Of a stretch of DNA of 64,000 nucleotides, positions 348 through 53,175 are shown in pieces. How positions within the stretch are numbered: the stretch's first letter is position 1; every line of letters starts with the position of its first letter. A program made the translations under genes and the position numbers. The notes beneath the pieces are model-generated. The model saw nothing but the letters and a program-made list of their open reading frames with translations. It ran no database searches and had not been told where the DNA came from. The DNA is taken from the NCBI GenBank assembly GCA_013115145.1, contig JAAPAO010000106.1:1-64000 (forward strand). The letters are read 5' to 3'. This stretch comes from Perkinsus chesapeaki. Its lineage: Eukaryota; Perkinsozoa; Perkinsida; Perkinsidae.

Positions 348-2966
348 ATGCCTTACTCTTCTCTGTCGTCTATAATATCAAGAAGGAGCCCCTATAAGGC
401 TAAACAGGCTTCCTATGCATTAAGTGATAGGATTAGAAAAGCACAGACTATCGATCAATTGGTGAGAATACTACGCACTTTGAAGGTAGGGACCTTTGCG
501 ACTGATTCATTCTGATGAGGTGGCAGGCAAGTGCCATAGAAACTGGAAGTGATATGCATGATTTAATGAGTACTCAGAATAGATTGGATTGGCTGAGCAA
601 AGCGGCTATCTTCGGTGGATGGCGATATGGCTATGATAGAGTACCAGAAGAGATAAAGAGTAAGCACCAATACGAGGGCGCATCAACCTTTCATCAGCTC
701 AGATATTTGAACCACTTCAACCAGATGACTTGTCTTTATCACAATTAAATCAATATCTTACTACCGTCATAAAACTTGATATTATCTCATATGCCCCCCG
801 ACCCTCTTCAATGGCTATTCGTTCTGCACTACATGAAGACCATGTTGACTTATCTGAATTGGCAATACTTATGAAAGCATCTGTTAAAGCTGATATCGAC
901 ACACGACCAGCACTCCAAGTTGCCAATGCCATCTTATCATCAGAGAAGTTGCCATCGGAGCCAGAGTAAGCAGCACCACTACCGAGCATATAGTCATCTG
1001 GTGTTGTAGGTTAATCCGTTCCTTTAGTTCACTCGCCTGGGTGGCAGCCCACATAGGGATGAATGATGGTGATTGTGTAACGCCATCAATGATCCTTTCA
1101 CGCATTGTTGAAATACTTATCCCCATGCTGTCTACTCCTGGAACTATTATCACCTTCACTGATGCATCGGAGCTACTGTGGTCATTTGCTAGATCATCTA
1201 CTTCGGACACACCAGAAGCACTGCATAGACTTGTTGAAGCCATTGAGATGTCACTCCTTTCTAGACCCTTGGATGGTACTGTTCGAGAGTACAGTACCAT
1301 CATGTGGTCCCTAGCAAGGCTTAATACTATCAACGATCTGTTTCGCCTGTGCGAAACTTCCCTTGTGAACTTTGGAGAGCTTCCTCCAGCCACCATTGCG
1401 ACGACTTGCTCCGCTCTTGCCAAGGCTCGGCGATTACCACCTCCTAAACAACTATGGCCACCTAAATCGTTCGATGGCATGACAGTGGAACACCTCGGTA
1501 CAGTTGTTAAAGCATCAGCTACTCTTGGTTGGGATGCTACTATACAGGCAGCAGTTGAGAGTGTTATAGAATCAGCTGATTCGTTCGAGGAGTTTATCGA
1601 TCTTCTTCTCGCTTTGAGTGCGGTACCAGCAGCACAGGATGTCTTCAACGTCTCCCTTGATAAATTGCTTCCATCAACCTTCCATCCACTACCATCTTCC
1701 ACTGGGGTTGCCCTTGTAACTTTACTTAGTCGTTCTACCAAGGAAGTCCACCAGCGAAGGGTTTACGAAGCCTGTGAATTAATTAGACTTGGTAGATTGT
1801 CTTGTAACGATTGTTGTACATTGGTATCTGCAATGGCAAAGTCTGGCCTTTATGATGGCAGAATAGTTGATGGTGTTCGTAAACAGATTGAGAATCGTCT
1901 TCTCCCGCAGCTCCTTCCTTACCATAAAGCCAACCTTATGAAGGCATATGCCATTTTACAGCCATCAGTGGTATGTGACTTTTGGGATGCAATCGGTAGT
2001 TCTCGTGACTTGCGTGACGCAAGAATAGTTGCCGCAGTGTGTTGGGCATTGGGCAACCGTTCCTTGCCTACAGCTGATAAATTAGGAGTCCTCCTCCCAG
2101 CTGCAAGTCAATCATTGGAGCGACTGGATGGTATAGAATTGGCCAATGTCGCTAGAGCCTTCGCTAAGCACAAGGTGAAGGATCATGCCCTAGTGAAGGC
2201 AATGGTAGATTCCTTATTGGCTTGTCCTCCTCGGTTGGATGATCGTGCTCGATGCTCGTTACTTTGGTCATTAAGAAGATTAGGTGGTCTCAGTGAAGGT
2301 GTTATTGGACGTATTATTGATGATATGGGAAGTATTAGAGATCTTGCTCCACAAGACTTAACAGCTATTGCCAATGCAACTGATGGTATGGTGTGCGGCA
2401 ACGATAAGGTTGATGAAATAAAACAAGTAATGGAAGAATTATTGGATCAGTTGGCAACGGCAATCAAGACTGGTGACATCTCGCAAGTCGAAAAATGCGA
2501 GGTTGGTAACGTTGGACCAGCATTTGTTCGTACCTTACTGGACAAGTTAAAGATACCCTACGAAGTTACCACTGGAAGAAAAGTGCCTCATCATCACATA
2601 GGCGTTGTCAATACAAACGTCAAATTAACTGTGTCTGAGCTGACCAACACACTCACAGGTGCCAATTCAACGATGTGTTTCGGGAGTGGCTCCGAGTCTT
2701 GCAGACCCAGAGCATATGAAGATGAGATAGACTCTCCTTCTAAAAGTTTTGGAGGTCATGACAGATCCCACCATGGTGAGCTGAAGGCGCTTCGATATCT
2801 TGTCGCGGTCGTTGGTGGTGAAACCTTTGAACGATTGAGCGGTGAAGTTGTAATTGAGATCGACAGTCAACATCCATGTGTATCATGCATCGCGGCCATC
2901 TGGAGGACCTCTAATATCCTCTGCCCAGATGTTACTATCAAACTCAAGTTTCCGTTAATTGCTTAG
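348..2966 (+). CDS. Helical-repeat protein with C-terminal cytidine-deaminase-like domain
   Basis: Four exons (348-485, 527-659, 698-965, 1010-2966) join in frame to 831 aa; the introns are 41, 38 and 44 nt with GT..AG ends. The first ~35 residues are rich in Ser, Arg and Lys with no acidic residue in the first 25, resembling a mitochondrial presequence. Residues ~100-650 are Leu/Ala-rich paired helices with recurring patterns such as LANVARAF, SLLWSLRRL and IMWSLARL, similar to the FASTK/RAP/HPR or OPR helical RNA-binding repeats common in alveolate organelle proteins. The last ~120 residues carry HGE (H768, E770) followed by PCVSC (P802, C803, C806), the zinc-binding H-x-E...PC-x2-C signature of the cytidine deaminase superfamily. 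No RAP domain is seen at the C terminus. Inferred role: organelle RNA editing or base modification. The gene model is well supported; the substrate is unknown. Confidence 0.8.
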
Positions 2967-3720: not shown

Positions 3721-4939
3721 TTAGAAGCATTTACGATGAACAATAGTCGGTCCAGACTCATCATACTCCTGCTTGGAAATCCACATCTGTTGGAATGTAG
3801 ACAAAGAGGACAAGATAGAGCCTCCAATCCAGACCGAATACTTACGTTCTGGTGGAGCTACAACCTTAATCTTCATAGTAGAAGGTGCCAAAGCAGTGAG
3901 CTCTTTAGTCATCCTTTCACCGATACCATTGAACATAGTAGTGCCTCCAGATAGTACAACATTGGCATATAGATCCTTTCTGATATCAACATCACATTTC
4001 ATGATAGATTGGAATGTGGTATCATGAATGCCACTTGCTTCCTTTCCAATGAAGTTAGGTTGGAATAGCACTTCCGGGCAACGGAAGCGTTCATTACCAA
4101 CAGTGATAATATTGCCATCGGGCAACTCGTACGTTTTTTCCTTCTCACTGCTCTCAGCAGCAGCCTTCATCTCAGTGTCGAAGTCGAGGGCGACATAGGA
4201 CAGTTTCTCCTTAATATCACGCACAATCTCGCGCTCAGCGGTTGTGGTGAATGTGTAGCCACGCTCGGTCAAAATCTTCATCATGAATTCAGTTAGATCA
4301 CGACCAGCAAGATCCAACCTCTGAATAGCATGAGGAAGAGCATAACCCTCATAGATAGGGACAGTGTGACTAACACCATCACCAGAATCCATAACAATAC
4401 CAGTAGTTCTTCCCGAGGCGTACAAAGAGAGGACAGCCTGAATCTGGACATACATGGCAGGAACATTGAAAGTCTCGAACATGAGCTGAGTCATACGCTC
4501 ACGGTTAGCCTTGGGATTCAGAGGGGCCTCGGTCAACAGAACCTGAAAAGGAAACACTTGCAGAATATTAAGATATCGCAGACAACTCACCGGATGTTCC
4601 TCGGGAGAAACACGAAGTTCATTGTAAAAGGTATGATGCCAAATCTTCTCCATATCATCCCAGTTGGTAACAATACCATGCTCGATCGGGTATTTCAATG
4701 TGAGGATACCACGCTTAGACTGAGCCTCATCACCAACATAAGAATCCTTCTGGTCCATTCCAACCATAATGCCAGGCCTGAAAAAACAAGTGACATCAAC
4801 GAGATGGAGTATCTTACATCTTAGGTCGACCAACGATTGAAGGGAAGACGCTACGAGGAGCATCATCACCAGCAAAGCCGGCCTTGCACATACCACTGCC
4901 GTTATCGATGACCAAAGCGGTAATTTCCTCGTCAGCCAT
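3721..4939 (-). CDS. ACT1: Actin
   Basis: Three exons (4818-4939, 4591-4777, 3721-4542 on the minus strand) give 376 aa, the standard actin length. The introns are 40 and 48 nt with GT-AG ends. The protein starts [21 protein letters not shown] and ends PTIVHRKCF, with the ATP-binding DNGSG and DSGDGVSHT segments and the LSGGTTMF motif intact. Intron 1 splits the Met codon of RPKM/PGI and intron 2 falls at EEHP/VLL, close to intron positions expected in protist actins. It forms the actin cytoskeleton, which drives motility and division. Sequence conservation makes this call essentially certain. The start codon follows directly from the conserved N terminus. Confidence 0.98.
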
Positions 4940-11405: not shown

Positions 11406-14400
11406 ATGGCTACAATTGGTAATGAATCTCTCCTTCTCCAGCGGGAGTCTGGTATGCTACGCCCTCATAGAGTTATTGGTGTAGTATGTGGCCCACAAAG
11501 GGCATCAGTAACTAAGGTTGGATCACAAACCTTTATTACTGCTGTTACACACAAGTCGTGGCAGGTAAACCGGGTATTATTAAGCATTAGAAGTATTGGA
11601 AATCCGATTAGGTTTATGATACAGAAAGTCTCGATATAAGATATATTCAACCAATAAGAGAGGAGACTGTAAGTTGTATAACATCCATTGGTGACACTAC
11701 AATAGCTGGTTACGGTAATGGAAAGATAGCTGTATGGCATAAGATGATACCTATTGTAACGATGACTAAGGATGGACATAGAGGCACTGTTGAGTAGTAT
11801 AGGGTAGAGGGCAATACGGTTAATAACAATAATGATTTCGTCCGCTATTACGGTTTTAACCTCCTCTGGACATCCTCCTTTTATAGGTCATTATTCCTAC
11901 TTGGTAGTACATTCCTACTAAGTGTAGGAGCTAACGGTAATGAAGTATTATTATGGACACTACCATCATCATTGACCAAACCCGGTGGTGAAATTGATGG
12001 TCCTATTAGACTTAATATTGGTTTTGAGCTCACAGCAGCTACACACATACCTACATATCTTAACAAGATGCTAATAGCTGGTCGAGGGGGCGAACTTGAG
12101 CTTCGGAATTTGAAGACTCGTCGAAAAATACACACTTTTGGGTGTCTGTCTAATGACTCTGCTATAACAGCATTATCACCCTCGCCAGCTCTCGATGTTG
12201 CTGCTATAGGCTTCCAAAGCGGCCGTATATGCCTTATAAACTGCAGGACTGATGAGCTGTTATTTACCCTATCAACAACTGAGAGTAGGGCATCTGGCTC
12301 TATCACTGGTCTTACTTTCCGTACTGATAATGGCGATCATAATGGGGTACTGATATCGAGTACATCTGACGGTGATGTATTTATATGGGACTTGACCGAG
12401 AAGCTACTACACAGCTCTATAAAGCATGCTCATGATGGTAGTATAACAACTTTAACAGCTTTATCTGGCGAACCGCTTGTTGTTACTACTGGAGTTGATA
12501 ACACTATGTGTGTGTGGATATTTGATAAACCTGATGGTAGTCTAAGGTTGTTACGTCAACGTAAAGGAGCTAGTGAGCCTATTAAACACATTGAGATGTA
12601 TGGTAATGATCCTACTAATAATGCCGAATCAAATGATTTACTTATTACCTCTGGTAGTAGGGTTGGTAAAATAAGTCTCATTCAGCAGAAACAGAATAAG
12701 ATATGGAGTATGTCGAATATATCGAAAGCAACAGCAGGTCTAGGATCCAGGATGAAGTGGAGAAGGCCGACTGATGGTAATGGTGAGCTGGGCGAAATCG
12801 TGTCAATAGCTGGTACAAGAATACGCCAATATGACTGGCCGAATGTTATCACTGCTAATAAGGGATCTACCAACGCTACTGTGTGGAGTGGATATCAACA
12901 GGCATTAGTAAATCGTCAATTAGATGTACCAGATAATAAATCACAAGTTGTTAAAGTGGCTGTCAGCCCTTGTGGTAACTTTGCCTGTGTTGGGCTTAAG
13001 AATGGTGAAGTCCATCGATTTAACCTACAGAGCTGTCTTTATAGGGGATTGGTAACAAAGCATGAGAATGCTGGTGAGGTAGCGATCTTGGAGTTCTTAT
13101 CATCGACTAGTATATTATCGGCATCATCGACCTCACGTGACCTACGTATTACTACATTCGGATCTGGTATGAAATCGACACCTAAGTTGAGAAGTATATC
13201 TTTGCCGGAAGGAAACGGTACAATACAGTGTGCTGCTGTCAATGGGCCACTTGTAGCAGTTGCTCTGAATAAAGGGGAAGGAGTATTGGTCGTGGATATG
13301 GATTCGGGTAGGGTCGTGAGACGTATGGATGAGCTTAAGGGTGGTGTTACTGCTATGGGATGGTCACATAGTGGACAGCTGCTTACTGTTGCCGATTCTG
13401 ATGCAAAAATGGTAATATATGATCTACCAACAGCAAGTGTAGTTGATAGAGTCATATTTACTTCACCTGTTATGGCGCTATGCTGGAGTAATGGTGATGC
13501 ATTCCTTATCACTAGTCACCCACACACGGCGAAGTACGGTGCAATGCATATATGGACTAATACCAAACTATTAGGACATGATTCGGATAATAATAACGGC
13601 ATGCTTACAGTCCCTAAGGTGTATGTACCAATAGATGAGCCTATAAGGGAGGGGGATGAGGAAGACCGTGCTGATGATGATGATAATGTTCAGGAGGAGC
13701 CCTCAGCAGTCCTTAATAAAGCTGTATCGTACACCCCACAGAGTAGAGGAGCAATAACACTATCGAATGTACCGAGAACAAGTTGGCAATATGCCCTTCG
13801 ACTTGATGAGATTAAAGAACGTAATAAGCCTGTCGCAGCACCTAAGAAGCCAGAGAGTGCTCCTTTTTTCCTGCCGACTGTGTATGATGGCTCAAAGCCT
13901 TTATTCGCGCCATTGCAAGCATCTAAGGGTGAAGGAGACGAGAAGGAAGAGCCTGAAAAGAAACGGATGAAGTTTGATGATAGTGTTGATTTTGACTCAA
14001 CTCTGGACTCGGAGTTTGAAAGGGATATTGCTGCGAGGGACTGGGAGGCTGCTATGGAGTATCTTAAAAAGCAAACAGCAAGTGGACTTCATTTGTGTAT
14101 AAGTGAAATAAGAGATGATAACTTACGGTACGCTGTAGAGTACTTTGAAGCCATGGCGTCTACAGGGAAGGATTATGATCTAGTGCAGGTGATGGAGGAA
14201 TAAAGCATTCAATGGTTAACTGATTGATCATCTTCAGGTGCAGCTGTCTCTGTTCCTTAAGTTCCATGCTGAGACATTGCTAGAATCAACTGATGAGGAG
14301 CTACGAAACGCTGTTAAGCAGCTTAGTAATAGATTGACAAGCAACTTCAAGGTAAGATGATAATTATAATAGTATATAGTTATATTGTTATTCAGGGGTT

Positions 14401-32173: not shown

Positions 32174-33322
32174 CTATAGTTTAGCTTTTGCATATCCAAT
32201 AGATCTACCATTTGAGGGGAAGTGGTAATACCTCCCAAAGAAGGCAGGCATACCAAACACAATAGCTTTATCGTCATCATCGAGATTTAAGCGTAAATAA
32301 CACTCACCTTCATGTTCCCAGACCAAGGCTTGAGGGGACACTTCAAGCAGGAATTTCTCGCCTTTAAGACCTTCCACAGTGAACGTCAGTGGCGGTACAT
32401 TGCCAGTGTCTGAGCAAGAGATAACCAACTCGGACTCTACTTGTTGAATTGAGAACTTCTCCTTCCCAGCTGCTTGTAGGTAACCAAGCACTTGGGACTT
32501 CCACTTTTTATTAATAAAGATATGTGAGCTTCCCGTATCGAAAACGGCAGGATAAGTCATATTGATGACATACTTGGGATCGCCGACCCCGACTCGGAGA
32601 CTATGCAGCTGTACAAATTGCTCATCTTTGTTAACAATTTTGAAGAGCTTCAATGGTCCTGCTCGTTTTGATGGATCCTCACCCCCGAGAATGATTTCAC
32701 CGGATGCGAAGTCTTCTTCATTGAAATACACAGTGAAAGATTCATATTCTATAACGTTCTTAGTGGCCAATTGCTGGACTAGAGATTGGTAAGCTTTCGG
32801 CTCTGCATCTGCAGCAGGCTTTAAGCCCAGTGACGCCCAGATATTCCACGGGTTGCCATTGAAGCGGGCCACCAGACCGAAGTCTATCTCCCCGGCCGAT
32901 TGTGCACGACCAAAGTCGAAAGTGCCACTGTGAAGGAAGACTGAAACGCACGCGTGGTCTTCGAACCAAAAGTCCTTCGTTGGGCCTCCCTGGCAAGATG
33001 GTTCACATTCAAAGCAACCGAAAATAATATCAACGCACTTTTGGTGAGGATCTTCGAACCAATCCTTCCACACAAGAGAAAGGACTGGTGTTCCGGTGTC
33101 GACCAGAAGCCTCACGTCTTGACCATCAACCTTTAACTTAGCCAAGGGTAATGGGTATACATCATGGAGATCAGTTAACGCTGATGAAATGCTTACCTTG
33201 ATCAACTGGACGGAGCTTACAAGTGTGAGCGTGACAAGGAATCCGAGCAACATCGACATTATCACAAATGTTTTAGACAATGTGCAGTGCCATACGGTGA
33301 TAATGTGACCGTGACATGACAC
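32174..33322 (-). CDS. Pepsin-like aspartic protease (A1 family)
   Basis: A single exon of 382 aa, or about 361 aa if the start is the Met at residue 22, which heads a good signal peptide (MSMLLGFLVTLTLVSSVQL). The first catalytic motif is LLVDTGT (D75), the second FDTGSSHIF (D262). DTGT in place of DTGS is tolerated in A1 enzymes. Other A1 features: GEIILGGEDPSK and the C-terminal FGMPAFFGRYYHFP. Length and two-lobed arrangement fit the family. Cys pairs (CVDIIFGCFEC, CEPSC) follow the first lobe. Likely secreted or vacuolar proteolysis; a specific substrate cannot be inferred. Confidence 0.9.
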   Translation of the reverse strand: MSCHGHIITVWHCTLSKTFVIMSMLLGFLVTLTLVSSVQLIKVSISSALTDLHDVYPLPLAKLKVDGQDVRLLVDTGTPVLSLVWKDWFEDPHQKCVDIIFGCFECEPSCQGGPTKDFWFEDHACVSVFLHSGTFDFGRAQSAGEIDFGLVARFNGNPWNIWASLGLKPAADAEPKAYQSLVQQLATKNVIEYESFTVYFNEEDFASGEIILGGEDPSKRAGPLKLFKIVNKDEQFVQLHSLRVGVGDPKYVINMTYPAVFDTGSSHIFINKKWKSQVLGYLQAAGKEKFSIQQVESELVISCSDTGNVPPLTFTVEGLKGEKFLLEVSPQALVWEHEGECYLRLNLDDDDKAIVFGMPAFFGRYYHFPSNGRSIGYAKAKL

Positions 33323-35693: not shown

Positions 35694-36725
35694 TTATGCT
35701 TCCATACAGGATGCTATCGCGTCAACCATTTTAGGGAGATCATCTTCATCGAGGAAATTATGATGTGCCTCGATGGTGCGAACTTGACCATGACCTTCCG
35801 GCATCTGATCCATGAACAACTTTTGTACTTTTTCTCTCAATTGCGGGTTAGTGTATTTATCAATAGTAGGATGTATAATAAATGCTCCTTGAAGCTTTAC
35901 TAAGGGCTCAACGCTTGGCTCAATAGGCATATCTTTCAGCTCCCATGCTAGCATTCTTTCAATATTACGCAGGAATTTACCGTGGCAGATCTCCCTACCA
36001 GCATCACGCATTGGAACGGATGAGGGAACGAGGGCAAGAATACCACTTAGTATGGGACGGAACCATGACAGAACGGACAAGGTGGGACGGGTACCATAGC
36101 GAAGGCGATTGTAGTTTGAGAATCTACAAATTGTCGGAGCAAGTAGACCAACTTCGAACTTAACCGTGGGGAAATTGTGACGTATCTTACCGATAAAATT
36201 AAGCAATATAAAAGCACCGATAGAATGACCTAGTAACAGAACTCTTTCATGTTTGGTTGGGTCAATTCTTCTAGACAACAGACGAACATGATGATCGACT
36301 TGCTGCTGTAGAGTGTCGAAAACCCTCTCACTTGTCTGGGAGTGACCGGCATGACCTTCCACCAGGACTTCTGCCCCAGGGAACTTGCCTACCAATAGCA
36401 TGGCGAACTCGCGATATAAAGATACGACCGCTGGATTACCCGGAATAACAACAATCAATAAACCAGTATAAGGAGCTTCCTTGGACTTATGCATATCTTT
36501 ATCGGCTAACCAAAAAGAGTCAGAATTCACGTGACTAGTGACACGCCGTCGGACCAAATGACGAACCTTGCCCTTGGTGATACCATTACCCTTCTGAACC
36601 TTGGTACAGGACTCAACAGACAGATCAGAGGCAGTTGTCGTAGCAGCAGATGAAGTATCACTTCTACGACTCTTAACGGTAGCCGTCATCATAAAGGGAA
36701 CTAAGAATAGCTGAAAGAGGAACAC
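35694..36725 (-). CDS. LDAH: LDAH-like lipid droplet-associated hydrolase (alpha/beta hydrolase)
   Basis: A single exon of up to 343 aa. The family (DUF2305) hallmarks are present: IPGNPAVVSLYREFA (94-108), the nucleophile elbow GHSIGAF with Ser168, then LLAPTI, and a C-terminal EAHHNFLDEDD that supplies the catalytic His. The N-terminal 80 residues are Ser/Thr- and basic-rich and vary in this family; the Met at 12 is an alternative start. Eukaryotic relatives sit on lipid droplets and act on sterol or acyl esters. Confidence in the family is high; the precise activity is inferred. Confidence 0.88.
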   Translation of the reverse strand: MFLFQLFLVPFMMTATVKSRRSDTSSAATTTASDLSVESCTKVQKGNGITKGKVRHLVRRRVTSHVNSDSFWLADKDMHKSKEAPYTGLLIVVIPGNPAVVSLYREFAMLLVGKFPGAEVLVEGHAGHSQTSERVFDTLQQQVDHHVRLLSRRIDPTKHERVLLLGHSIGAFILLNFIGKIRHNFPTVKFEVGLLAPTICRFSNYNRLRYGTRPTLSVLSWFRPILSGILALVPSSVPMRDAGREICHGKFLRNIERMLAWELKDMPIEPSVEPLVKLQGAFIIHPTIDKYTNPQLREKVQKLFMDQMPEGHGQVRTIEAHHNFLDEDDLPKMVDAIASCMEA

Positions 36726-41418: not shown

Positions 41419-43500
41419 ATGAAGTTTGGCAAGAATATATCAGTACAACAAGAGCAGCGACCAGACCTGCATTATCTACAGTACCACTTGGATGCACGCG
41501 TATCAACCTCGAAAATATCTTCAGGTACAAGCCCCTTAAAAAGGTTCTTAAACGGTCATTGCGAAGTGGTAACGATGGTGACCAAGCTGGAGCATTCGAG
41601 CGGGCTCTAGAGGAAGAGGTAAAAGGGAATAGGAGAAGGGGCTTTGTATTGCTTTCTATAGATTGATGAGGTCAATAAATCCTTTAGTGAGCATGCACAG
41701 GAGATACAGGATCAGATAACAGTACTGAGCTCAGAAGGATCTAGTAAGGATCAACCTAAGATACTCAACCACATGCTTATTAACCTTAGCGGAATCTTCT
41801 GCATCCGATAGACTACGAGCATTGATGGGTTTAAGTCGGGCAGTTGATGAATTAAGAAAGTTCGCCGTGTGGAACGCCGTCGGTGTCGTAAAGATACTGA
41901 AGAAAAGGAATAAGCTCCAGTAGGTTAACACCATTAGATTCCATAATACCTATGAATAGGTCAAAGCTGATGGAGAAAAATGGTCCTGGGGAATTGAAGG
42001 ACCCAACTCAGGTCGATGAGGAAAGGGCACGATGGTTGAGACGCCAGACGTTCTTCACCGGCACTGATTTTGCTGAACTACAGGTCAGTGAGGGCTGGTT
42101 ATTAAAGTAAATATACTACATTGATTACTAAGTCGATGGCTAACTACGTCAAATTCGGCCCTCGGAAATTTCGTGACGACACGGCTCAATCAGGGCAGCT
42201 TTGAAGTTTTTTAGCAAAGCCCGAGTTAATGGCCGCACCCGGGTGGAGAAATCCATATTAGAGGTAGCCCAGCAGTAGCAGCGGCCTCCACTTTCAGGCG
42301 TCTATAGAGTCCCTATCGAACGCCCTTTGCCGTGAAAGGCTACACGAGCTCGGCCCTGAGAAGTTACCGTCTCAGCTAGTCCTCGCTGAGGATGACGACT
42401 GTCCGGTCGGAATGTTCAGGGATGAACGATGTCCAATCTGCCTGGAGAAGTGCAGTGATGTTGTGGAGCTGTCGACATGTGAACATAAATTTTGCTGGAA
42501 ATGTTTCGTCCTCGGCCCCATCGCCTTCGCTCCTGGCGAGTACCGTTTTGATCGGTGTCCGATTTGCCGAAGAGAACAGCCACTGGATCCCACTGTTAAT
42601 TTTAAGACCGATACCAACTCCAACTCGACGACTAATATGCTGCTCCGAATGGCCAAATACGTGGATGTAGATGACTCCAACGAGCCTGCTGATGATAAAG
42701 AATCTTCCGGAAAAGAGGACGGCTCCGTTGCAGCAGTTCACCAGCCCAGCACAAGTTCCTTTTTCTCGACTTTGCCGCCATCAACTGGGCATAAGTCTCC
42801 CGAGTCCGGTATGTCATCCGAAAAGAGCTCTCAGCAAAACGCCGCGTGGACGGGTAACGCCGGAGAAGGCATGTATAGTCAGTTTTGCTCCTTGTGTTGC
42901 GAGCCATTACTTCTGGACGCTGTGGTGACGACTCCATGCAAGCATCACTTCCACAGACACTGTCTTCAGCGGCAGACAACAACTACATGCCCCCTGTGTG
43001 GAGCCAAAGACCTCCCTCTAGAGCTCTTTATGCCGAGACATATGCAAGCACAAGTTAGGGCTTTGGGGAGCTGGAAAGTATGTTCCTGTGAATGTCAAAG
43101 TGAGGATATTCTTCCTGACGGGCCTTGTTGCCAATGTTACGGTTGGCGTCTTCACTCACCACCTCCGAGCAACCTCTACACCGTTAATGGCCCGGTCACT
43201 AGCTATCTCCATCTGTTACCAAAATCAGCATGGTCTAAAGTCAGTCCAATGCACACTTACGGTAATGGTATCTTTCCGTCTGATTTTGTTGGTGATAATG
43301 ATTATGATGACGAGTCCAGTAGTGACTCTAGTAGTAGCTATTGTGACTCAGTGTGCGGTATGGATGACCATAATGCCTACTTCGCATCCTGTGGACCGTT
43401 GCCGTCGTTCAATAAAGATCTTGCGGAAATCACCGCTAGTGTTCATCGCCGCAGAGACCTGGCTGAGGAGGAATTTATGCACTCTGGTGTCCCTCATTAA
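41419..43500 (+). CDS. SPX domain protein with two RING fingers (candidate E3 ubiquitin ligase)
   Basis: Starts MKFGKNISVQQEQRPDLHYL; a 43-nt intron restores QYKPLKKVLKRSL, the N-terminal SPX signature. Further SPX parts are AFERALEEE, IDEVNKSFSEHAQEIQDQI and FAVWNAVGVVKILKKRNK, the inositol-polyphosphate-binding Lys helix. The last exon, to 43500, encodes RING 1 (RCPICLEKCSDVVEL, CEHKFCWKCF, RCPICRRE), a Ser-rich linker, RING 2 (FCSLCCEPLLLD, CKHHFHRHCL, CPLCGAKD) and a Cys-rich tail. SPX-RING proteins such as plant NLA are E3 ligases for phosphate transporters, so a phosphate-homeostasis role is inferred. Exon joins between 42.1 and 42.3 kb are not resolved. Confidence 0.78.
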
Positions 43501-45554: not shown

Positions 45555-47798
45555 CTATAATTTGCTATAAGGACCGCGGCCTTGGATCAACTTATTCGCG
45601 ACAGTTCGTAACAAACGGTCAACCTCTGGCTGCTTTACGTAAACCTCAGCGATCTTGATTAATTCATCTAGACTAGTATCATCAGCCTCGTCCAGTTCCA
45701 CGGGTCTCGGAAGGTCTGGTTGCAGTCTATAATAGACCTCTGTATCTAATATGTCCGCTAGTATATGAGATGTTACTTCAGTTGAGGTTGCACTGTATAC
45801 CATTGCCAGAAGATCTCTGGTGATCGAATATAAACCTGCTTTGGCAGTGTAAGTAGCACCAAGCTTCTCAATAGGGACTCTACCAGTACCAATGCTTAAT
45901 AGACAATCGACACTTCTATTAGGGAAGATTCTAGCAGCCTCATGGAGAGCAAGGTGAGCAGGGTTATTAGCAACAAGAGCACCATCTTGGATCACTCTGC
46001 CGTCTTCGAGGACAACAGGAGCAAAATAAACCGGAGCTGCGGTGGTGGCACGAGCACACTGATAGATAGGCAGATTGCGGTCACCTTGATACCGGCTGCT
46101 GTTAGACTCGGGGTAGTTGTAATTGCGAAATAGAAAAGGTTCCGGTGGTGACACAGTTGTTAAGGCTGTCACCACAGCTACCTTTGTTGAACTACCACAC
46201 AGTGCAGTTGTATCCAACATAGATAGTTCACCGTAAATCTGACGGAGATAACGACTCATCGCACGACTGTCATGCTTTTCCCCTTTAAAGAAGATTCGTA
46301 ATAGCTTTTCAAGTGAGCCTAGGGTGCCTCCTTTTGAGAACGCAGCCACACTTATATCTCTGGCAACTGCCGAGCTGGTGTCCAATGGTAAATTAAGACA
46401 CCCAATACCAAGCGCCACAAGCCCTCCAGCACTTGTACCAACAATCAGATCGAAATATTGGCTTATACGTTGACTTGGAAGGTATTTACCTAGAGCTTTG
46501 AGGATCGCTAATGTTAGCAGAGATCGGCTGCCCCCGCCGTCCAGGGCTAATATACGAATACCTCTATCTTGGTTAGATGGAGCAGAAGGAGGAGGAGGTG
46601 GTCTGGTATATCCAACAGCACGCTTGAACCATGAGCCCAATGAAGATAGAAAACCATATGTGTTGTTGTTGTCAACTTCATCGATTGCAGTTGGTGTTAA
46701 AGTCGATAACAGTTGTAACCTCCTCAGCAACAACCCTTGCAAAGGCCCTCCTCCACTGCTAATAACGGTATGTCTGATGATAGGGTATACATCAGCCACG
46801 GCATTGATATAAGACAGCTCCTCCAATGAGCCAGCTCCAGTTAGGGTTGAAGGCAGCGCGTCGAAAGGAATCAGAGGCACCAACGCTGTCGCCAATGCTG
46901 CGCAGCTATCCTTCACAGCTCGGAATAACCGCAAGGCATCGAAGTAACTGAGGCGACATCCTTCTCCACCAGGAGAGGGTAGTAGATCTTCTACACCAAG
47001 TAGAGGGCTTCGGACACCGTGAGCTGCAAGGATTCGGGAGAGGCGTACGAACTGGGGAAGGACCGCCATAGACCCACGTGGTAGTGATGATAAAACGACA
47101 GCACGAGCGATGGTGTCGCCTCCTATCGCCAAGCTGATGAGGATATCGAAATCTACTTGGTCTATTCGACCGTTGGTTTGTACAATGATACAGAGGCATT
47201 GATCCACCAAGACTGATGTAAGGGATGACGGAGGGAGAAGTCGACGTAGCTCATGAACGGTTAACCAAGGATCACCGAGTCGAAGACTGTAGTATGCCCT
47301 TATGGTACTGATGATAGGGGACGGCTCCGGCCAAGTGCATTGCGACAACATATCCACCAGGATGGAACTGATCTTTGGTAGCCAATGGTCGATATCGATT
47401 CCTGCCAGGAGTGAATGCCTCAGCAACACAAGTGCATCCTCAGGCGTTGGTTCTAGTGCATAAAGCACAATACGTCCGACACATAGTCGACGAAGGAGCG
47501 GTATGGCCTCGGATGGTGACACCATAGTAGCAAGGGCGGCACTTAGGAAAGATACTTCGGAAAGTACTTTATCATGTGGCAGATGAGGGATGAGAGTAGG
47601 CCAGTGAAATGCATGAAGCAATGTTGGCATAAAAAAACTAAACAATCGAGGCTTGCCATGGTCTTTATTGTACACACCGGAAACCCGAAACCCAAAAACC
47701 CGGAACTGCGTACCATCACTAATGGCATAATTTCTACTACGAAGGTCCATAGGGTTGGGAGATCGTGATATGATGTATACTGGTAAGAATGTTTCCAT
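45555..47798 (-). CDS. Patatin-like phospholipase (iPLA2 type)
   Basis: An intronless frame that opens at 47861 (768 aa); the Met at 47798 (METFLPVYII) is a likely start. Numbering on the 768-aa frame: residues ~80-400 are a helical, Leu-rich domain; a Pro-rich linker (PPPPPSAPS) precedes the patatin domain. This has the oxyanion loop DGGGSRS (441-447), the Ser-Asp dyad Ser in GTSAGG (Ser477) and Asp in DGALVANNPA (Asp626). CLLSIGTGR follows, as in other family members. It should hydrolyse phospholipid acyl esters. Similar to calcium-independent PLA2/PNPLA8-type enzymes. The downstream LIQGRGPYSKL is the C terminus. Confidence 0.9.
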   Translation of the reverse strand: METFLPVYIISRSPNPMDLRSRNYAISDGTQFRVFGFRVSGVYNKDHGKPRLFSFFMPTLLHAFHWPTLIPHLPHDKVLSEVSFLSAALATMVSPSEAIPLLRRLCVGRIVLYALEPTPEDALVLLRHSLLAGIDIDHWLPKISSILVDMLSQCTWPEPSPIISTIRAYYSLRLGDPWLTVHELRRLLPPSSLTSVLVDQCLCIIVQTNGRIDQVDFDILISLAIGGDTIARAVVLSSLPRGSMAVLPQFVRLSRILAAHGVRSPLLGVEDLLPSPGGEGCRLSYFDALRLFRAVKDSCAALATALVPLIPFDALPSTLTGAGSLEELSYINAVADVYPIIRHTVISSGGGPLQGLLLRRLQLLSTLTPTAIDEVDNNNTYGFLSSLGSWFKRAVGYTRPPPPPSAPSNQDRGIRILALDGGGSRSLLTLAILKALGKYLPSQRISQYFDLIVGTSAGGLVALGIGCLNLPLDTSSAVARDISVAAFSKGGTLGSLEKLLRIFFKGEKHDSRAMSRYLRQIYGELSMLDTTALCGSSTKVAVVTALTTVSPPEPFLFRNYNYPESNSSRYQGDRNLPIYQCARATTAAPVYFAPVVLEDGRVIQDGALVANNPAHLALHEAARIFPNRSVDCLLSIGTGRVPIEKLGATYTAKAGLYSITRDLLAMVYSATSTEVTSHILADILDTEVYYRLQPDLPRPVELDEADDTSLDELIKIAEVYVKQPEVDRLLRTVANKLIQGRGPYSKL

Positions 47799-47852
47799 TA
47801 GATATATTACTACTCTATGAACTGTGAAAATGATTATGCATAATAATATATA

Positions 47853-47945
47853 AAGGTACATAATAATAGGTATAAAATAGGTATATAATAATAGGCATAT
47901 AATAGGTATATAAAGGTATAAATATATAATACATAATAATATTTT
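47853..47945. repeat. AT-rich short direct repeats
   Basis: Degenerate copies of AGGTATATAATA/ATAATAGG repeat over about 90 bases just upstream of the phospholipase gene. Low-complexity; probably a slippage-prone promoter-side tract. Confidence 0.6.
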
Positions 47946-51597: not shown

Positions 51598-53175
51598 TCA
51601 TGACGCAGCTGCTCCGCTTTCTTGGTCCAATATAGGAGCGTACAGGGTTAATCTCCTACGACTCCGCCACGCCTCCACAGCTGATACCGCTCTCTTCCCC
51701 AAGCCTCTAAAACTTAACAATATGACCATGGTAACATAAGTACAGCATAGGATAGGCAGTAGGTCCCCTATTATAGTATATATAGTCCCAGAGCCACCAA
51801 GCTGTACTTCACCAACTAGAGCATTTTCAAGGGCCTCTGTGCTTTGGAAATGTGCCACTACCTTCCCTTTGCCGTCTACTATGGCCGAGTCCCATGCCCC
51901 GTCTGCTTTAACAATTGGTATATTATTCTCGATCGCTCTAAGAACACTCACACCATAATGATTACGCATGGCACTCCAGTCATTCGACGGATTTAGTATA
52001 ATCGATGCCCCCAGAGCAGCGAGTTCTCTAGCTGTAGCAGTAAAGTCCATATCGTAACAGATAAGAGTTCCGGCTTTTCCTATAGTGCCAGACACAGGGA
52101 CATCTGAAGTGATAGAGCCCATAGATGAGGGCAGATGAAATAGAGGATAACCGTATTTAGCAGAGCTCTTCTCTCCTGCAACCCAGAAAGGATACTGCTT
52201 ACCATAAACACTAATAACTTGACCTTCGTTATTTATAGTGATAGCTAGATTTTGTTGAGGGTAAACAGTAGCTCCTAATGTTAGGAAAATACCTAATCGT
52301 TCAACCACAGGAGATATCTGTTTGTCTATATAAAGATGGAGACTAGATTGATCAGAGAAGCCACTAAGCCATGCCTCGGGCCATACTACTATCTTGGCTC
52401 TACCATCTCCAGCGGCCCATTCGGTCAGGTTTAGCATGCGCTCCACGCTACCGTTGCAGGGCAGGCGACCACCCACATGGATGATCTCCGATCGGCCTCC
52501 ACAAGCGTTAGGTAGGAGAGCTCCAGGTGTGATAGTGGCAACTGTGATGGCTTCTCGACCGACGTTATGGTCTACTGAGAATAATAATATGCTTACCACA
52601 ACCCAGACGGTAAGGTCAAACGCTGCCCTAGTTATGTACTTGTAATTTTTAGATGATACAAATGACGCTATAGAAGCGTTGGTGTACATTACCATGAGCT
52701 CAAGGCCAAAGACACCGAAGATTGATATTGGCTGGAGTAAAGCAGGCGCTACATATAGAGGAGTGCACAGGAGCTCGAAAGTACCCAAAGGGCCACTGAG
52801 GCCATACCACATAGCTGTCCACAGAATAGAGCAACGGAGAGGCTCTGATTTGGTATTAGGTTGAGCGAAGACCAGCTTATCTATTATCACTAATATAGAC
52901 CATAAACCTGCTATAACTATTCCAAGACATAGACCTATTAAAAGAGGGAAGCCTTGGATTGAGCATCTTATCATAGCTGTTACCGGAAAAACTATAAGTA
53001 CTGTTATAGGGGCCTTGTCTTGAGCAACAAGTAGGGGTACTAGAGCTATAAAGCACAAAGGCCAGAGCTCAATTATAGTACTAGTAGTCGGTAAATGGAC
53101 AGATCTACAGTTATCTAATATAGCAGTCGACAATCCTAATAGTAACAATCTCCATGGTGGGAATTGAAGCCTCAT
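51598..53175 (-). CDS. Apolipoprotein N-acyltransferase (Lnt)-like membrane enzyme
   Basis: A single 525-aa exon. The N-terminal ~200 residues contain about six to seven membrane segments (for example LCFIALVPLLV, LLIGLCLGIVIAGLWSILVI). A nitrilase-fold domain follows with the full catalytic set: VVWPEAW (Glu267), YGKQYPF (Lys326) and LICYDMDF (Cys373), then NPSNDW. A C-terminal membrane segment (LLPILCCTYVTMVILLSF) ends the protein. This is the architecture of bacterial Lnt, which acylates lipoproteins. In a eukaryote the acceptor is unknown. Absence of introns, unusual here, fits acquisition by transfer or reverse transcription. Confidence 0.88.
   Translation of the reverse strand: MRLQFPPWRLLLLGLSTAILDNCRSVHLPTTSTIIELWPLCFIALVPLLVAQDKAPITVLIVFPVTAMIRCSIQGFPLLIGLCLGIVIAGLWSILVIIDKLVFAQPNTKSEPLRCSILWTAMWYGLSGPLGTFELLCTPLYVAPALLQPISIFGVFGLELMVMYTNASIASFVSSKNYKYITRAAFDLTVWVVVSILLFSVDHNVGREAITVATITPGALLPNACGGRSEIIHVGGRLPCNGSVERMLNLTEWAAGDGRAKIVVWPEAWLSGFSDQSSLHLYIDKQISPVVERLGIFLTLGATVYPQQNLAITINNEGQVISVYGKQYPFWVAGEKSSAKYGYPLFHLPSSMGSITSDVPVSGTIGKAGTLICYDMDFTATARELAALGASIILNPSNDWSAMRNHYGVSVLRAIENNIPIVKADGAWDSAIVDGKGKVVAHFQSTEALENALVGEVQLGGSGTIYTIIGDLLPILCCTYVTMVILLSFRGLGKRAVSAVEAWRSRRRLTLYAPILDQESGAAAS

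Follow-up and report, generated by a model that had tools for sequence, protein, structure and literature searches.

The window analyzed here is the 64,000-nucleotide stretch at positions 1 to 64,000 of contig JAAPAO010000106.1 from Perkinsus chesapeaki, a parasite of shellfish, and close to its start lies a gene whose product joins a predicted RNA-binding-type helical array to a deaminase-like C-terminal domain. A first-pass annotation had picked out this combination of repeats and zinc motif, and the observation held up, as the gene has a spliced open model, orthologues, and conservation beyond chance. It extends from an ATG at 348 to a TAG at 2966 and encodes 831 amino acids in four exons (Table 1). 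The introns, at positions 486-526, 660-697, and 966-1009, are 41, 38, and 44 bases long, and exactly one GT-AG combination was open in a scan of ranges near the three frame breaks. Exon 4 is an open frame of 690 codons, and because its protein is 100% identical to FOL47_000378 of the nuclear P. chesapeaki genome, the window is assigned to that genome. The public model of the gene (P0001) has 683 amino acids and begins at an internal methionine; the N-terminal sequence of the 831-residue spliced model is also present in the P. olseni protein P0003. The N terminus, earlier called R/S rich, is indeed basic and Ser-rich, with 10 K/R and 2 D/E in residues 1 to 46; residues 1 to 26 contain 4 K/R and lack D/E. 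Judged from this composition, it is a possible mitochondrial targeting sequence.

Helical array of the HPR/OPR/RAP class

The predicted model of P0001 is helical as far as residue 545, and across most of the array the helix pairs are spaced 34 to 38 residues apart. Structure comparison returned solenoid neighbors, including Toxoplasma and algal mitoribosome chains, and the top match, both in fold and in a PDB sequence search, was trypanosome RESC6. These results agree with the alpha-solenoid predicted for the N-terminal part by the first-pass annotation and with its choice of the FASTK/RAP/HPR or OPR repeat class. The array was also compared with RAP proteins of the same genome. There are 16 PF08373 matches, of which the regions of 8 were taken; the C595 region had no frame of 150 amino acids and was dropped, and five of the remaining seven RAP frames scored above their own reported shuffles (200 shuffles per frame, of which hmmsearch reported 116 to 154). 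Membership in the HPR/OPR-type solenoid class is supported by these computations.

The window gene itself has no RAP domain, as none of the 16 genomic PF08373 matches lies in it and its protein has no Pfam match to the domain. According to the accessible part of a RAP survey, just a fraction of HPR/OPR proteins carry one. PPR repeats gave no Pfam match at an E value of ≤10 in the exon 4 protein, P0002, or P0003, and weak Pfam matches to K-cyclin (0.01), HEAT_2 (0.048), and F-box-like (0.044) were below their cutoffs and were not used. FASTK, the apicomplexan HPR proteins, Chlamydomonas OPR proteins, and RESC6 share the solenoid class and a C-terminal accessory domain with the window protein, whose deaminase-like domain, however, stands where the restriction-endonuclease-like RAP domain would be. 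The RNA code of this repeat class is described as uncharacterized in the text available from one paper (PMC12691811). Elsewhere in the genome, four RAP-domain open frames form a tandem cluster of about 9 kb on one strand (L043, G000:C46:80500-90499).

A conserved deaminase-like domain in the same exon

The HxE and PCxxC motifs are present in the expected order, and the residue numbers first given for H768, E770, C803, and C806 are exact, with HGE starting at residue 768 and PCVSC at 802. An AlphaFold model of the C-terminal 181 residues had a predicted template modeling score (pTM) of 0.70 and a mean predicted local distance difference test score (pLDDT) of 67.4. In this model, strands are followed by a helix starting from HGE, a strand, a helix starting from PCVSC, and a last strand, directly after which the domain ends. 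Among the 50 Foldseek matches listed, 49 were APOBEC, AID, or cytidine deaminase structures, the outcome anticipated when a cytidine deaminase fold was first proposed. The quality of these matches was modest, with a best E value of 0.05, TM-scores of ≤0.40, and root mean square deviations (RMSD) of about 5 to 14. Re-examination of the list with VIA identified all 50 as deaminases, with RMSD values of 2.6 to 4.5 across about 90 to 103 residues; DddB (6.9) and APOBEC3H (6.7) were tied, followed by PPR-DYW (5.7) and DddA (5.2), none with a sequence link. Each score is modest alone, and many rows repeat the same few APOBECs. Membership in the deaminase fold is nevertheless indicated by the modeling, because a model without sequence similarity returned a single superfamily and has HxE and PCxxC where they belong in the fold. 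At the sequence level, the domain had no Pfam or NCBIfam deaminase match at an E value of ≤10, and a PDB search with a C-terminal profile gave three matches (E values of 0.68 to 1) that were taken as chance.

Conservation is strongest around the putative active site. The relatives found include one record that is 54% identical over 89% of the query and the P. olseni protein, 52% identical over 94%. P0001, P0002, and P0003 have 528 columns in common, 241 of them identical, and the longest identical run is the 16 residues FGGHDRSHHGELKALR. The best 30-column window (P0001 residues 601 to 630, the HGE region) has 27 identical columns, a value reached by none of 20,000 column shuffles. Against P0002, identity is 202/392 in the array, 40/75 in the opening portion of the C-terminal domain, 42/51 in the loop plus HGE helix, and 28/42 from there to the end, a pattern that fits an enzyme constrained at its active site. 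Loss of the motif in orthologues would have spoken against a deaminase; HxE is kept in both, and PCxxC in the one that can be compared there, P0003 being partial and stopping before PCVSC. An artifact or chimera was rejected, since P0002 has the same fusion, as does P0003 as far as its truncated sequence goes. Modeling and comparison together support a deaminase-type fold with an intact active-site motif, fused to the array within one exon.

In its own genome the deaminase-like domain has one match at an E value of ≤10, the gene itself. A paralogue, FOL47_008899 (P0004; L003 5731-7398, G000:C551:19730-21397), has the array in common, at 29% identity over 520 residues (range, 29 to 31%), on a contig that ends before any C-terminal domain. 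A prokaryotic or viral origin found no support with profile A2, which had no match at an E value of ≤1 among 2,391 candidates whose lengths exclude full-length relatives. Stretches fitting a search pattern, 35 in genome contigs and 46 in viral contigs, were left unconfirmed.

Downstream of the gene by about 750 bases, and convergent with it, is an actin gene (positions 3721-4896, minus strand; PF00022, E value of 2.8e-121). Further open frames of the window are included in Table 1.

Table 1. Features of the Perkinsus chesapeaki window
Feature	Positions	Strand	Remarks
Exon 1	348..485	+	ATG start; basic, Ser-rich N terminus; sole open GT-AG model, matches P0003
Exon 2	527..659	+	Sole open GT-AG model; matches P. 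olseni P0003
Exon 3	698..965	+	Sole open GT-AG model; matches P. olseni P0003
Exon 4	1010..2966	+	Most of array and entire deaminase-like domain; uninterrupted frame
Alpha-solenoid, HPR/OPR/RAP class	1083..2471	+	Residues ~205-667; ~12 helix pairs (our own pairing)
Deaminase-like C-terminal domain	2517..2963	+	Residues ~683-831; model pTM 0.70, deaminase structure matches
H768-G-E770 zinc/proton-shuttle motif	2772..2780	+	Inside FGGHDRSHHGELKALR, identical in three proteins
P802-C803-V-S-C806 zinc motif	2874..2888	+	Kept in P0002; P0003 ends upstream
Utp21/WDR36 open frame	11972-14203		
Aspartyl protease open frame	32174-33322		
Lipid-droplet-type hydrolase open frame	35694-36725		
RING-finger protein open frame	42412-43500		
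Patatin-like phospholipase open frame	45555-47861		
Carbon-nitrogen hydrolase open frame	51598-53175		

A candidate RNA deaminase and its possible targets

The best explanation, which we hold to be somewhat better than an even proposition, is that this nuclear gene encodes an HPR/OPR solenoid with a zinc deaminase acting on a specific RNA, most likely a mitochondrial one. The solenoid would grip a particular RNA, most likely inside the mitochondrion, and the C-terminal domain would then deaminate one base of the bound RNA. A mitochondrial RNA is proposed because the neighbors of the array act on mitochondrial RNA; catalysis, mitochondrial location, and RNA substrate are all three what we infer. 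For the base change, C to U is favored over A to I, a weak preference drawn from the helix-to-strand spacing of known families. That spacing we take to be similar in the window domain and in DddA/DddB-type and AID/APOBEC deaminases. These share the fold, HxE, and PCxxC with the window domain, which differs in having no detectable sequence similarity to them, in lying within a eukaryotic RNA-binding protein, and in stopping just after the strand that follows the PCxxC helix.

The likeness to plant PPR-DYW editors suggested in the first-pass annotation stands for the architecture and fails for membership. The C-to-U editors of plants and of protists such as diplonemids follow the same logic, an RNA-binding array and a C-terminal deaminase. 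The window protein, in contrast, has HPR/OPR/RAP-type repeats that are not PPR by Pfam, and it lacks a DYW domain: PF14432 had no match in the proteins and none in the genome, and the protein ends in PLIA, not DYW. Its assembly was probably independent of those editors.

Published statements on Perkinsus mitochondria are taken here from the accessible parts of the papers. The cob and cox1 cDNAs of Perkinsus spp. agree with the genes (PMC3101222), and Gornik et al. describe mitochondrial transcripts without editing (PMC9550989). Both weigh against an mRNA substrate; since the cob and cox1 mRNAs are published as unedited, they are not the target, and tRNAs and rRNA fragments remain. The organelle editor first proposed is partly supported, in its solenoid class and deaminase-type fold. 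In these mitochondria UGA is read as Trp, the DNA encodes no tRNAs, the rRNA is fragmented, and frameshifts are needed at AGG and CCC codons. The best candidate targets would be imported tRNA-Trp, in which a C34-to-U change would allow UGA to be decoded as Trp, or the mitochondrial rRNA fragments. In kinetoplastids a mitochondrial cytidine deaminase performs the needed C-to-U change, and the trypanosome enzyme TbmCDAT, acting on the anticodon of imported tRNA-Trp, provides the candidate reaction here, as far as the available sources describe it. We know of no repeat array in TbmCDAT.

A search of the assembly with arm patterns permitting TCA gave 22 tRNA-like matches, 18 with a Trp-type CCA anticodon and 4 with GCA. 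None of the 4 or 22 matches of two arm patterns (≤3 mismatches) had a TCA anticodon, in a search that could miss divergent tRNAs or genes absent from the 35.4-Mb assembly. An exact 35-place pattern, which had 39 matches as a reversed control, gave 27, of which one formed four anticodon-stem pairs and none formed five; in the tRNA family search, 63 of 3,361 candidates were scored. ARAGORN called Trp(CCA) at 16 of 26 loci around tRNA-like matches (some overlapping), Arg(CCG) at 7, and nothing at 3, and the only TCA tRNAs called were tRNA-Sec, at three of six loci in one scan (L094, L095, and L096). The examined tRNA-Trp has an anticodon stem of five pairs, so a route by which CCA reads UGA through a four-pair stem (PMC13092985, in part) is inapplicable to it. 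Nuclear tRNA-Trp falls into two sequence classes, both CCA (C323, C30, and C622 versus C129, C556, and others; L063, L048). One class could be imported into mitochondria.

Three points weigh against a tRNA-Trp target: TCA suppressor-like tRNAs are reported in P. marinus and P. olseni, at least in the accessible text, P. olseni has the protein all the same, and the assembly in which no TCA tRNA-Trp was found may be incomplete. The more specific proposal, a Perkinsus editor that arose independently of plants, with a deaminase replacing RAP, and that changes tRNA-Trp CCA to UCA or edits rRNA fragments in P. chesapeaki, is a reading of low probability.

Competing explanations and implications

Slightly less probable again is a noncatalytic role in the mitoribosome, as a subunit or an assembly factor bound to short fragments of rRNA, with the deaminase fold retained as a zinc-stabilized RNA-binding module. 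The mitoribosome chains among the array's neighbors, the fragmented Perkinsus rRNA, and the five RAP proteins of the T. gondii mitoribosome (PMC11742926, accessible part) would suit it; all four catalytic or zinc residues are kept, however, and no part of the protein is more conserved than the HGE region, which would exceed the needs of a scaffold. We give the same low standing to a reading, overlapping the best explanation, in which the protein edits rRNA fragments of the mitochondrion and not tRNA, whether by A-to-I or C-to-U change. It draws on the same mitoribosomal neighbors and on the T. gondii mitoribosome, in which rRNA is reported to show A-to-G differences from the genome; editing by uncharacterized machinery is one option for these, the authors leave room for a heterogeneous mitochondrial genome as well (available text of PMC11742926), and the consulted portions of the Perkinsus literature contain no such differences.

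It is doubtful that the deaminase assignment is wrong and that a shallow AlphaFold model of another zinc domain produced the matches. The model drew on just 4 aligned sequences, its mean pLDDT is low, with low confidence at 59-63 and 91-116, and TM-scores are low with no sequence-level match; against this stand its pTM, a list of structure matches made up almost solely of deaminases, and two helices that carry HxE and PCxxC in the order expected. A DNA deaminase used on mitochondrial or foreign DNA in the manner of DddA or APOBEC is the least probable, given an array of the RNA-binding class and the presumable cost of an organelle DNA mutator.

No report of such a fusion was present among the literature matches listed, and a mention in the 2011 deaminase survey of Iyer et al. 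is possible; in the accessible main text of a RAP survey, which credits P. marinus with 19 RAP proteins, the word "deaminase" is absent. A review, seen in part, treats as an open question two PPR genes of dinoflagellates that have DYW-like domains (PMC12787238); those are PPR proteins, unlike the HPR/OPR-type protein of the window. The present gene suggests more than one origin for the union of an RNA-reading solenoid and a deaminase, in this case from the HPR/OPR/RAP class. It names a concrete gene in a lineage with recoded UGA, frameshifts, tRNA-less mitochondrial DNA, and unedited mRNAs, and it gives a clue to the decoding of UGA as Trp in Perkinsus mitochondria. If the more specific proposal of an independently evolved editor is true, the protein would provide a decoding step for the recoded genome of mitochondria whose lineage has been considered to lack editing in this organelle.
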